Origin: Rhodobiaceae bacterium
GTDB lineage: Bacteria; Pseudomonadota; Alphaproteobacteria; Parvibaculales; Parvibaculaceae
Length of the DNA stretch: 64,000 bases
Assembly (NCBI GenBank): GCA_003330885.1
Contig: CP030277.1
Location: forward strand, 2,902,001 to 2,966,000
Direction: 5' to 3'
A program made the position numbers and the translations under genes. The notes beneath the pieces were generated by a model, which worked only from the letters and a program-made list of their open reading frames with translations, ran no database searches and had not been told where the DNA came from. Of the stretch, positions 7,612 to 33,884 are shown piece after piece (the stretch's first letter is position 1; every line of letters starts with the position of its first letter).

Positions 7612-7678
7612 GGCGGAAAACCGCCAGAAAAAACCCAAAGCACAAAAGCACCTGTGAGCGAACCCTCGCCGACAGGTG
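7612..7678 (-). promoter_or_regulatory. Two hairpins in the ffh 5' leader
   Basis: On the minus strand CACCTGT...ACAGGTG (7678-7649) with an inner CGAG/CGCTC pairing forms one hairpin, followed by a T-rich stretch (CTTTTGTGCTTTGGGTTTTTT). A second short hairpin GGCGG-TTTT-CCGCC (7625-7612) ends a few bases before the ffh Shine-Dalgarno. Either could affect transcription or ribosome access. The role is inferred only from position. Confidence 0.4.
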
Positions 7679-7858
7679 GTGATCCCGGCCTCCCTCAAGA
7701 GACCTCGTCAGGACCGAAGCATGTAAATCTGCTCCGAAAGAGCGCGCAAACTAGGCAGAAAGGCCGTTTCTGTCAAATATTCCGAGCGGAAGCAGACTTA
7801 GCGCTCGTTAACCTCGTTTCCTAACAAGACATTAACAGGCTGAGGATAGCTTGGCCTC

Positions 7859-29567: not shown

Positions 29568-30302
29568 CTATCCCGCCTTCTTCATATCGACAATGATGCC
29601 ACAGGCCACCAGCCAGACGCCGATCAGTGTCACGAAATAGATAATGTCCCGGAGATCAATCACCCCTTCGACTATCGCTTCAAAGTGCGTGAGGAAGCTA
29701 AAGGACGCAATCGTTGTCAAAACTGCCTGGGGTGCCCAGACCGACACGAAGTCAGTCACGATGGGAAGACCAGAGACTGTAAAGAGGAAACAGACAACAA
29801 CGCTCACCACAAAGGCAATCACCTGGTTGCGCGTTGTCGCCGAAATGCAGGAACCAATCGCGAGATAGCCACCCGCCATAAAGAAAGAACCGACATAGCC
29901 CGCGAGGATCACCCCATGATCCGGATCACCGAGATAGGCAACTGTCAGCCACATGGGGAATGTGAGCGAGAGCGAAATGCCTGCAAACACCCAGGCCGCC
30001 AGAAACTTGCCGAGCACAGCTGACCAGAGCGGAATAGGCAGCGACAACAACAACTCAATGGTGCCGACCCGACGTTCTTCTGCCCAAAGGCGCATGGCGA
30101 TAGCCGGGATCAAAAAGAGGTAGAGCCAGGGATGAAACTGGAAGAACCCTTTCAGGTTCGCCTGCCCCGCCTCAAAGTGCCCGCCCAGATAAAAGGTGAA
30201 GCCACCAACGCAAAACAGAAAAATGATCATGAACACGAAAGCGAGTGGCGTAGCAAAATAGCCCGCCAGTTCCCGTTTGAAGATCGCAAGCGTCTCTCTC
30301 AT
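29568..30302 (-). CDS. ABC-2 type permease (GldF-like)
   Basis: 244-residue inner-membrane protein with about six helices, starting MRETLAIFKRELAGYFATPLAFVFMIIFLFCVGGFTFYLGG. RLWAEERRVGTIELLLSLPIPLWSAVLGKFLAAWVF is the typical ABC-2 permease loop. It pairs with the ATPase upstream, whose stop overlaps this ATG by 4 bp. It and GldG-like protein probably form the membrane part. Substrate unknown. Confidence 0.88.
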   Translation of the reverse strand: MRETLAIFKRELAGYFATPLAFVFMIIFLFCVGGFTFYLGGHFEAGQANLKGFFQFHPWLYLFLIPAIAMRLWAEERRVGTIELLLSLPIPLWSAVLGKFLAAWVFAGISLSLTFPMWLTVAYLGDPDHGVILAGYVGSFFMAGGYLAIGSCISATTRNQVIAFVVSVVVCFLFTVSGLPIVTDFVSVWAPQAVLTTIASFSFLTHFEAIVEGVIDLRDIIYFVTLIGVWLVACGIIVDMKKAG

Positions 30303-31270
30303 GCTACGTCCCCTTGCGCTTTTTCTGTATCGGGCCGTGTGAGCGACCGGAACACTTCGTCCAGACGCCCGGGCTCTCCATAAAGCGTCCGGACATTCCA
30401 GGATTTTTCACGCGCTAGATTGCCGACCCGGTCAACAAGACTGGTGTCGGCTTCATCCGCACTTGTGGCAAACAAAGTGAAAGAATGATCAGCACCGCGT
30501 GCGTCTTCTTCCATGGATGCCACACCCTCAACTGCAGATAAAGCCTCGCGCGCGGCATCCGCATCGCCCGCATCAAGGGTCAACGTCACCGCATTATGGT
30601 AGCGGGACCGAGCGGTCAGGGCTGCCGGTGTACCATCTGCAACGATCCGGCCTCGATCAATAATGAGAGCGCGGCTACAGATCGCATCAACTTCTTCAAG
30701 GATATGCGTAGAGATGATGATTGCTTTCGTCGGCGCCATCTCTGCGATGAGTTTGCGCACCGCAAATTTCTGGTTGGGGTCAAGACCATCCGTCGGCTCA
30801 TCCATGATGAGCACCGGTGGGTCATGCAGAATGGATTGAGCAAGCCCGACCCTACGACGAAATCCCTTGGAGAGCGTTTCAATAGGCTGTTCCATGACAC
30901 CGGCAATCTCGGTGCGATCAACAGCCCGCGCAATCGCGGCAGTAGCAGCCGAACCTTTGAGGCCCCGTATATCCGCGATGAAACGCAAAAACTGAAGCGG
31001 CGTCATATCTGCATAAGCAGGCGCCCCTTCCGGCAAATAGCCGATCATGCGCTGGGCGGCGAGCGTGTCCGGCCCAACTTCATGGCCACAGACGCTGATA
31101 TGCCCGGCCGTTGGCGCAAGGAACCCCGTCACCATCTTCATGGTCGTGGACTTGCCCGCGCCATTAGGACCTAGAAAGCCCAGAACTTCGCCGCGCGCCA
31201 CAGAAAAGCTGATCCCGTCCACCGCGGTGAACGGACCGAACTTCTTCACAAGCCCATTGATTTCGATCAT
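30299..31270 (-). CDS. ABC transporter ATPase (GldA-like)
   Basis: 323 residues from ATG 31270 (MIEINGLVKKFGPFTAVDGISF). An upstream GTG at 31306 in the same frame is possible; neither has a strong Shine-Dalgarno. Walker A is GPNGAGKST, signature LSKGFRRRVGLAQS, Walker B VLIMDEPTDGLDP, and the H-loop IISTHILEEV. A C-terminal domain of about 100 residues after the ATPase core is usual in ABC-2 exporters. First gene of the four-gene set. Confidence 0.92.
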   Translation of the reverse strand: MIEINGLVKKFGPFTAVDGISFSVARGEVLGFLGPNGAGKSTTMKMVTGFLAPTAGHISVCGHEVGPDTLAAQRMIGYLPEGAPAYADMTPLQFLRFIADIRGLKGSAATAAIARAVDRTEIAGVMEQPIETLSKGFRRRVGLAQSILHDPPVLIMDEPTDGLDPNQKFAVRKLIAEMAPTKAIIISTHILEEVDAICSRALIIDRGRIVADGTPAALTARSRYHNAVTLTLDAGDADAAREALSAVEGVASMEEDARGADHSFTLFATSADEADTSLVDRVGNLAREKSWNVRTLYGEPGRLDEVFRSLTRPDTEKAQGDVA

Positions 31271-31483
31271 CGCTGCCGCAGAACCGCCGCTGGCAGATGA
31301 TTCCACATGGTTTGCAGTGTCGTTTGCCGTAATGGTTTTATCTCCCGATCAGATGGATCTCGCGCCCATCTTGCCCCCCTTTCTTATGCCACTGCGACGG
31401 GCGCGGCGACAAGGGGGCAGCACGTGAACAATCGGTCATTTTCGTAAACAAGCCAGGGGCTTAGAGGGCCACGCAAAGTGGTC

Positions 31484-32334: not shown

Positions 32335-33057
32335 CTACACCCGCAGCATCAACCCGCCGTCGACATTCAGGCCGTGCCCGGTGACAAAACCGCCATCATC
32401 TGAGGCCAGGAACAAGGCACCCCGCGCAAGATCGACCGGTTCCCCAAGACGTTTCAGAGGCGACTTCTTGGCCCAAACCTCAGCAATCTTTGGGTCCTTG
32501 AAGTTGACCGTCATGCCCGTGCGAATGGCACCGGGAAGTATATAGTTTGCCGTGATGCCATATCGACCAAGCTCAAGCGCCAGATTGCGGGTGAGACCTG
32601 CAACGCCGGCTTTTGCGGCGCTGTAAGCCGCCAACCCATAATCAGTACCGTCGGCCATAACCGACGCCACATTGATGATCCGACCAGCGTCGCTTTCTTT
32701 CAAATGAGGGATCGCCGCTTTTGAGAGCTTGAAGTGGGGCGTGAGATTAACTGCCAGGCACTTGTCCCAGAGCTCGTCGGGAAACTCCTCAACCGGCGCC
32801 CCCGCGCCAATTCCTGCATTGTTCATGAGAATATCAAGCTTCCCATATCGCTCGACGGCCCCACCGATAATGGCAGCTGCAGCGCTCTCAGCGCTTACAT
32901 CTTGATCGAGCGTTTGAATGTTTTCGTGGTCCAGCGAAAACGGCTCTAGATCGACCGCGAGGACCTTCGCCCCTTCGGCAGCGAACAGTTCTGCCGATGC
33001 CCGGCCGATCCCACTGGCTGCTCCCGTGACAATCGCCACTTTGTCTTGAAGACGCAT
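32335..33057 (-). CDS. Short-chain dehydrogenase/reductase (FabG-like)
   Basis: 240-residue classical SDR. TGAASGIG at 12-19 binds the nucleotide. LMNNAGIG, Ser in NVASVMAD and YSAAK are the active-site landmarks. NYILPGAIRTGM follows. GLNVDGG at the C-terminus is typical of 3-oxoacyl reductase-like members. Shine-Dalgarno GGGGGA is about 6 nt before the ATG. It has an unusual 5' region: a repeat (33118) and a structured leader with a terminator (33183-33430). Confidence 0.88.
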   Translation of the reverse strand: MRLQDKVAIVTGAASGIGRASAELFAAEGAKVLAVDLEPFSLDHENIQTLDQDVSAESAAAAIIGGAVERYGKLDILMNNAGIGAGAPVEEFPDELWDKCLAVNLTPHFKLSKAAIPHLKESDAGRIINVASVMADGTDYGLAAYSAAKAGVAGLTRNLALELGRYGITANYILPGAIRTGMTVNFKDPKIAEVWAKKSPLKRLGEPVDLARGALFLASDDGGFVTGHGLNVDGGLMLRV

Positions 33058-33161: not shown

Positions 33162-33182
33162 GCCAGTAAACCGTTTACACAA

Positions 33183-33229
33183 GAAAAAAGGGTGAGCCGC
33201 TTCTGAATATCAGAGGAGGCACCACCCTT
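33183..33229 (-). terminator. Intrinsic terminator inside the SDR leader
   Basis: On the minus strand AAGGGTG (33229-33223) pairs with CACCCTT (33194-33188), with inner GCC/GGC and TCTGA-TAT-TCAGA pairs, and it runs into six T residues. No gene ends here on this strand: the next minus-strand gene upstream has its own terminator at 33926. It therefore stops a transcript that starts in the 33230-33500 gap and would otherwise read into the SDR pair. Confidence 0.65.
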
Positions 33230-33430
33230 CAGTCTGTTGCCTCACATTTTCCCAAAACAAGCAGGGGAATAATCGAGGAGATCTAAGTGGCCCGACCCCG
33301 AATGATCCGGTGGGGCTGGGGGGCTGAAAGAACCGGAGACTTTCGAGACCGGGCCTGTAAGGCAACAATTGAAAGGTAGGAGTCCCATGTGTCCGGTCCG
33401 CGGCTGAAAAAAGGCAAGATTGTGATTTCT
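33230..33430 (-). promoter_or_regulatory. Candidate structured leader RNA of the SDR pair
   Basis: No open frame of merit on either strand. On the minus strand GTTGCCTTAC (33366-33357) can pair with GTGAGGCAAC (33245-33236), 9 of 10 positions. The latter can also pair through GAGGC with GCCTC (33220-33216), which overlaps the terminator's upstream arm. GGCCCG (33355-33350) pairs with CGGGCC (33294-33289), and CCCC/GGGG (33312-33315 / 33296-33299) forms a hairpin between. Together these resemble an attenuator or riboswitch layout. No known riboswitch class was recognised. The pairing is by eye. Transcription could also be from the plus strand as the DUF2794 leader. Confidence 0.4.
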
Positions 33431-33500
33431 GCGCAACACATTCATCAGGAAGCCGCAGAAAACCTTGTTTTGCAGCCCCGTCCGGGCGATCATTTCCCCA

Positions 33501-33884
33501 ATGGATCGATCACCTACAAGCGTGAAACCCGCCAGCCTCGTTATCGTGGGCAATGGCTATCAGGCAGGCCGCGGCGTGCCTCAGACGGAAGTCTCCTGGC
33601 ACCGTCGGGAGCTCGACGTCATCCTCAATCTCTATGGGCGCAAAGTGGCCGCTGGTGAATGGCGGGACTACGCCATTGACGCGCTAAGAGACAAAGCAGT
33701 CTTTTCCGTCTTCAGACGCTCCAGCGAAATCCCACTCTATCGGATTGAGAAGCACCCAAAGCTCACCCGCAAGCAAGGTGCTTATCAAGTGATCGCAGCG
33801 ACCGGCGCCATCCTGAAGCGGGGTCATGACCTCGCTCAGGTGATCCGCGTGCTCGACAAAAAAAAACTCCGCCTGGTCGACTGA
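33501..33884 (+). CDS. DUF2794 protein
   Basis: 127 residues from ATG 33501 (MDRSPTSVKPASLVIVGNGY). The conserved DUF2794 core is WHRRELDVILNLYGRKVAAGEWRDYAIDALRDKAVFSVFRRSSEIPLYRIEKHPKL and KQGAYQVIAATGAILKRGHDLAQVIRVLDKKKLRLVD. The family is nearly confined to Alphaproteobacteria and has no known function. An upstream alternative start at 33465 exists. The Shine-Dalgarno is weak. It is convergent with the Bax-inhibitor gene. Confidence 0.88.
   Translation: MDRSPTSVKPASLVIVGNGYQAGRGVPQTEVSWHRRELDVILNLYGRKVAAGEWRDYAIDALRDKAVFSVFRRSSEIPLYRIEKHPKLTRKQGAYQVIAATGAILKRGHDLAQVIRVLDKKKLRLVD

Follow-up and report, generated by a model that had tools for sequence, protein, structure and literature searches.

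The ChvG/ChvI (ChvGI) envelope-stress system, whose response regulator is ChvI, protects the cell envelope and has a role in host association. The small RNA BjrC174 (Rfam family RF02355) comes from Bradyrhizobium, a soybean symbiont, and its original description is reportedly that of Madhugiri 2012. In Bradyrhizobium BjrC174 is an abundant sRNA, and its promoter is active yet fits none of the consensus motifs of the study in which it was tested (PMC4842269), which is what an activator-dependent promoter would show. In Caulobacter crescentus the sRNA ChvR pairs with the chvT mRNA via two stem-loops, one of the sites being located just before the start codon (PMC6237742), and UzcR has chvR among its targets as well (PMC12864828). 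A further sRNA of this organism, CCNA_R0088, is raised in a fur mutant (PMC6120978). For ChvI itself the consensus N-GCC-N8-GCC is given for S. meliloti, with reference to another paper, together with the motif TTGC-N3-GCAA for C. crescentus, which is unlike the GCC array described below (PMC9731502).

We analyzed a stretch of 64,000 nucleotides from a Rhodobiaceae bacterium (GCA_003330885.1, contig CP030277.1, positions 2,902,001 to 2,966,000), which is called the window in the following. An original prediction had placed an attenuator or riboswitch on its minus strand ahead of two SDR genes and had named an independent small RNA as the alternative. Our results argue for the alternative: the region is best read as a small RNA gene that stands alone and has its own terminator, presumably transcribed separately. 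We consider it likely that this gene encodes an sRNA of the BjrC174 type, which has a promoter under a ChvI array and acts in trans via C-rich loops.

Results

Structure of the RNA and its terminator

The putative small RNA gene comprises about 187 nt on the minus strand (~33370-33184), with an estimated 5' end and a 3' end defined by a T-run. On one side it is flanked by a plus-strand DUF2794 gene (33501-33884; PF10984, E 5.8e-40) and on the other by two minus-strand SDR genes, of which SDR1 (PF13561/PF00106) occupies positions 32335-33057. The terminator that had been postulated in front of the SDR genes is present at 33184-33229: a hairpin (~33229-33188) with CCUCC in its loop is followed by the T-run to 33184, and the SDR1 start at 33057 lies about 127 nt past this T-run on the same strand. 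A simple scan of the window did not list this terminator, probably because its stem contains mismatches, and a simple terminator finder overlooked the terminator or put it in the wrong place in several loci of the window's family (e.g. L001-L004, L010 and L012). Counted by eye, at least 20 of the 30 family loci have a terminator loop with a run of five or more C.

Folding of the 192 nt from 33375 to 33184 resulted in -78.6 kcal/mol compared with -56.7 +/- 4.2 for shuffled sequences (z -5.3; 0 of 200 shuffles as low). Both pairs of complementary blocks named in the original prediction form with P=1.0. The block 33357-33366 (GUUGCCUUAC) pairs with 33236-33245 to a basal stem of 10 bp, and comparable stems occur in the folds of relatives; 33350-33355 pairs with 33289-33294 within a longer stem (33342-33355/33289-33302, P 0.89-1.0). 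The latter stem is part of the main hairpin (33289-33355), which consists of two helices and presents a C-rich loop with the sequence AGCCCCCCAGCCCC (33312-33325). The terminator stem, from 33229/33188 inward, forms with P 0.88-1.0 in the same structure as the basal stem and the main hairpin. The pairing of 33236-33245 with the terminator arm, which had been proposed as the switch, has a summed probability of only 1.2e-10. The most stable fold found that contains a competing pair of this kind reached -58.0 kcal/mol in comparison with -78.6 kcal/mol. Since pairing blocks and terminator coexist in one structure, the mutually exclusive pairing that marks regulated termination is missing here. Attenuation via competing pairing was rejected on the basis of these base-pair probabilities, and a riboswitch for lack of an Rfam match to any riboswitch family.

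The family alignment suggests TACCTT at 33373-33378 (minus strand) as candidate -10 hexamer of the RNA promoter; a simple promoter scan listed no sigma-70-like promoter for the small RNA, TACCTT included. Past the terminator, a promoter-like -10 sequence CTACAC (33102-33097, minus strand) was found by eye ahead of the SDR gene, and a similar CTACAC was seen by eye past the terminator in relatives. This site, which the simple promoter scan did not list, may be a separate promoter for whatever gene comes after the terminator. In loci of the Parvibaculum group, e.g. L013, the terminator is followed by a recurring block AAATGAAACATCTTTCACTTGAAGG ahead of the ABC gene; this block may be another promoter under regulation. 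Elsewhere on the minus strand of the window, positions 7641-7693 match the Rfam 'ffh' sRNA with 51.9 bits.

Conservation of the locus and covariation

Using positions 33170-33450 as query, a DNA search in 61 genomes, 37 from the window's own family and 24 from others, gave matches in 34 genomes, which correspond to 34/37 of the own family and 0/24 of the other families. The three own-family genomes without a match are incomplete (68-88%). For 30 of the 34 matches the loci were obtained and analyzed for the presence of five genes of the window. DUF2794 is located divergently upstream of the RNA in 29 of these loci, and the remaining one ends at a contig edge. SDR1 lies downstream of the RNA in 8 of the 30 loci, 4 of which contain both SDR genes; in the 22 loci where SDR1 was not found beside the RNA, the next tested gene is an ABC-transporter gene (window 30299-31306). 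As the RNA persists in relatives that lack these SDR genes, its terminator most likely closes a transcript of its own. The SDR genes are neighbors specific to certain lineages and outside the RNA system, whereas DUF2794 is the divergent neighbor that is kept with it. Control of the two SDR genes by an attenuator or riboswitch, the main claim of the original prediction, therefore finds no support in either the coexisting structures or the neighborhood; the independent small RNA is supported by the folding, the DUF2794 linkage and the retention without SDR genes.

All 30 aligned family loci share one and the same loop, AGCCCCCCAGCCCC. From 30 sequences a covariance model of the RNA core (R1) was built, and 55 diverse sequences were aligned to it (A2). 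In this alignment, which favors the pairs of its model, 92.1% of the cells are paired, 17 of 18 pairs are changed on both sides, and the relatives contain 201 double-change cells compared with 55.8 +/- 5.9 in shuffles. Structures slid by 1-3 columns, which served as a control, drop to 26-55% paired. RNAalifold's own prediction on A2 shows 17 pairs, 16 of them with double changes, and the same main hairpin. Across the 55 sequences the loop is barely altered, with AGCCCCCAGCCCC, AGCCCCCAAGCCC and similar variants. The stem is rewritten through compensatory changes, and the loop AGCCCCCCAGCCCC hardly varies.

Relation to BjrC174 and distribution in Alphaproteobacteria

A scan of the whole window with Rfam gave no gathering-level match to RF02355. 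In a search of 801 bases the RNA reached 31.8 bits (E 6.7e-4) with this family; as the gathering score is 45, the window copy falls outside BjrC174 by the rule of Rfam. The earlier statement that no known class is recognizable holds in so far as there is no gathering-level Rfam match for this RNA, but it has to be corrected with regard to BjrC174, of which the window RNA is, judged by its sequence, a remote relative. A hairpin with the loop CAGCC(C)CCCAGCCCC and a stem of the GGCCCGG/CCGGGCC type is a feature of BjrC174 and is present in the window RNA. The copy L105 shows 175.5 bits with RF02355 and is divergent from DUF2794 like the window RNA, so that the window RNA and BjrC174 are joined by their neighborhood. 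Two matches to lncRNA families at the window RNA, HOXA11-AS1_5 and H19_2, were below threshold and taken as chance, and a BcKCsr7 match in L127, also below threshold, is unrelated to the RNA.

In the genomes of the order, R1 matched 37 of 40, all from one family, including 27 of 27 near-complete ones. In the class, RF02355 alone matched 2 of 289 genomes, none of them over its cut-off, and R1 matched 11 of 385. Due to these few matches a second model (R2) was built from A2. With strict filters (E<=0.001) R2 detected the RNA in 24 of 385 genomes from 11 families and gave no match in the other 361 sampled genomes; these filters lose true copies, because 7 genomes that were positive via their DUF2794 regions were outside the 24. 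DUF2794 is present in 208 of the 385 class genomes. We searched 80 DUF2794 regions (79 genomes) from the top of the list; seven listed places, four of the window's family plus G401, G084 and G382, were skipped. R2 found the RNA in 26 of these regions (E<=0.01), always upstream and on the opposite strand, and 8 of the 26 had played no part in building R2. The class search and the DUF2794 regions together gave 31 R2-positive genomes from 14 families.

A combined array and loop pattern was additionally used for a scan of named genomes and matched at least 118 stretches. The matches listed include Bradyrhizobium, Microvirga, Bosea, Ancylobacter, Roseibium, Pannonibacter, Stappia, Parvibaculum, Tepidicaulis, Methyloligella, Robiginitomaculum and Caulobacteraceae. 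The first 80 of the at least 118 stretches were scored with R1, and 72 of them reached E<=0.01. Of the 118 stretches listed, 94 have a divergent DUF2794 gene upstream and 5 have one downstream; in 13 it is unseen, and in a further 6 it is unseen with the match near the stretch edge. The 13 stretches include chance-looking matches from Streptomyces, Nocardiopsis and Hymenobacter, but also Phreatobacter, Hyphomonadaceae and Rhizobium. A DUF2794 gene downstream of the RNA instead of divergent from it is found in L197, L205, L237, L241 and L288 (four Ancylobacter, one Xanthobacteraceae). L065 and L068, both matched by R1, are genuine copies that have the loop AGCCCCCAAGCCC and lie away from DUF2794. 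In G074, G201 and G297, which belong to a single genus, the RNA is present in 4-5 copies per genome (L126, L150, L331-L333, L347-L352); in G074 and G201 two tandem copies lie beside DUF2794 and the other copies elsewhere.

GCC repeats upstream of the RNA

Upstream of the RNA and outside the R1 model, the minus strand contains the direct-repeat array GCC-N8-GCC-N8-GAC (33415-33391), likely a site of the OmpR-family/ChvI type. The S. meliloti ChvI consensus GCC-N8-GCC is present here with two exact repeats, which are the only exact ones in the window's own array, the third being degenerate. The block 33401-33420 has a mean of 1.8 bits per column in the 30 family loci and is among the most conserved of the alignment. 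The array was counted in 36 copies of the RNA. Of these, 8 belong to the window's family; the other 28 had been found by R1 or, in the case of L031, by RF02355. Three GCC in 11-nt register occur in 19 of the 36 copies compared with 0.07 expected from dinucleotide shuffles, and at least two in 34 compared with 6.0 expected. For the copies outside the window's family the corresponding numbers are 15/28 and 26/28. In 25 of the 36 copies the distance from the first triplet to the R1 start is 44, 55 or 66 nt (+/- 1 nt). L118 and L108 have a single triplet, and in L145 and one L150 copy the best pair departs widely from the register. Among the copies away from DUF2794, L350 and L352 possess a full array, and L332, L340 and L347 an array of degenerate triplets as judged by eye.

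In the own genome, the exact triple array followed by NNAA occurs at 5 sites compared with 2 for the control, a comparison of no informative value, the array of the window not being included. An exact triple array is found within 700 nt in 10 of 27 DUF2794 regions that are R2-positive or, in the case of L104, near this limit (E 0.013), and in 4 of the 53 R2-negative regions (L119, L125, L151 and L158); the one in L125 looks like chance. In L151 and L158, which are upstream of DUF2794 in f18 genomes, about five GCC triplets with 11-nt spacing precede a strong hairpin, short and with a CUCCUCC loop, and a T-run; this may be the same sRNA in a reduced form.

ChvGI genes and possible mRNA targets

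The own genome encodes ChvG (PF13756, E 5.5e-28), and the neighboring frames are presumably chvI and hprK, in the order chvI-chvG-hprK. Ahead of the putative chvI frame, 288 nt of the coding strand contain no GCC-N8-GCC. As raw counts that ignore relatedness, PF13756 is present in 29 of the 31 RNA-positive genomes compared with 223 of the 385 genomes overall; the two RNA-positive genomes without a match are G407 (77% complete) and G098 (100% complete). Among the DUF2794 regions, the RNA was detected in 2 of 14 from PF13756-negative genomes (L130 and L153) and in 24 of 66 from PF13756-positive ones, which is a weak contrast. In Brucella, the DUF2794 gene BAB1_0087 appears in a table on MucR as a global silencer (PMC10746212). 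BAB1_0086 to 0088 are absent from the accessible part of the paper on the Brucella BvrR regulon (PMC9491525), which says little, since that paper uses other tags.

A scan of the own genome for sites with up to two mismatches to the loop complement revealed 36 sites compared with 16 for a control pattern. We inspected 29 of them (the 30 with loci minus the sRNA gene itself), and none was convincing at a ribosome binding site. One site is located 48 nt before a frame that we take to be glmS, within the preceding frame.

Discussion

According to the model that we propose for the window RNA, ChvI or a close OmpR-type regulator would activate a weak promoter whose -35 region lies under the array of GCC repeats with their 11-nt period. 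The product would be a rigid RNA of about 187 nt, released at its own terminator. Basal stem and hairpin would hold out the near-invariant C-rich loop, and the terminator would often add a second one. These loops may pair with G-rich, ribosome-binding-site-like stretches of mRNAs, plausibly those of envelope proteins. Antisense action is proposed by analogy, as the ChvI-controlled sRNA ChvR works by base pairing; in view of the missing convincing target site in the own genome, we infer this step.

It is rather unlikely that a stand-alone sRNA is controlled by one or more other OmpR/PhoB-type regulators instead of ChvI. Direct repeats with 11-nt spacing are typical of the whole OmpR/PhoB class, and 2 of 14 DUF2794 regions of PF13756-negative genomes retain the RNA. 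The ChvI motif of C. crescentus differs from the array (PMC9731502), and in the same organism UzcR also targets chvR (PMC12864828). Against another regulator stand both the spacing and the repeat unit of the array, which are those of the S. meliloti ChvI consensus, and the occurrence of PF13756 in 29 of 31 RNA-positive genomes. A decoy RNA, whose invariant loop binds a protein or the translation machinery rather than mRNAs, is improbable. It would agree with a loop that is little altered while the stem varies freely, with the lack of a clear mRNA target in the own genome and with the 4-5 copies per genome in G074, G201 and G297; however, we know of no protein that is tied to the C-rich loop motif. 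Moreover, ChvR, the best-studied ChvI-controlled sRNA, works by base pairing (PMC6237742). That a transcription attenuator or riboswitch controls the SDR genes is very improbable: the terminator does lie on their strand about 127 nt before the SDR start, but the structures coexist without competition, the RNA is kept without SDR genes and adjoins DUF2794 in other families, and a promoter-like site, seen by eye, follows the terminator. A chance structure or a coding region is hardly credible, because the 103-codon ORF (33242-33553, minus strand) that overlaps the RNA has no Pfam match and loses its frame through indels in the family alignment that are not multiples of three, and the pairs covary.

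The reading as a ChvI-controlled, trans-acting sRNA places BjrC174 in an RNA family that occurs in at least 14 sampled alphaproteobacterial families, with the array at a nearly fixed distance. The array provides BjrC174 with a testable regulator and the ChvGI system with a candidate sRNA arm. The wide occurrence of the RNA family, its constant association with the array and its linkage to DUF2794 appear to be new; no report of them was found in the literature on BjrC174, DUF2794 and ChvI with sRNA, in a search that had most subscription papers outside its coverage. More tentatively, it is quite conceivable that a widespread alphaproteobacterial sRNA family, with BjrC174 as one lineage, is a core part of the envelope-stress response under ChvG/ChvI, and that this family combines a nearly invariant C-rich loop with a stem that evolves freely, is duplicated in some genera and is reduced to a short hairpin with a CUCCUCC loop in others. 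If true, the family would do for Alphaproteobacteria what the sigma-E-controlled sRNAs do in enterobacteria.

A comparison with described systems shows how this locus is related to them. With attenuators and riboswitches that use an intrinsic terminator it shares the terminator ahead of a gene, but it differs from them in having no competing antiterminator and no tie to the downstream gene. CCNA_R0088 of C. crescentus, likened here by its description alone, has a promoter region among the top ChIP-seq hits of ChvI (PMC9731502). ChvR resembles the window RNA as an sRNA whose promoter is under ChvI-ChvG and which has three predicted hairpins, the last one being a possible terminator (PMC6237742). 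Compared by description alone, ChvR differs in its length of 84 nt and its position beside recF, and the accessible text does not report it near DUF2794. BjrC174 likewise has a C-rich loop on the same kind of hairpin, with five instead of six C before AGCCCC, its own terminator and a GCC array upstream, and is divergent from DUF2794 in L105 and in Bradyrhizobium loci, whereas the sequences of its stem, basal stem and terminator differ from those of the window copy.
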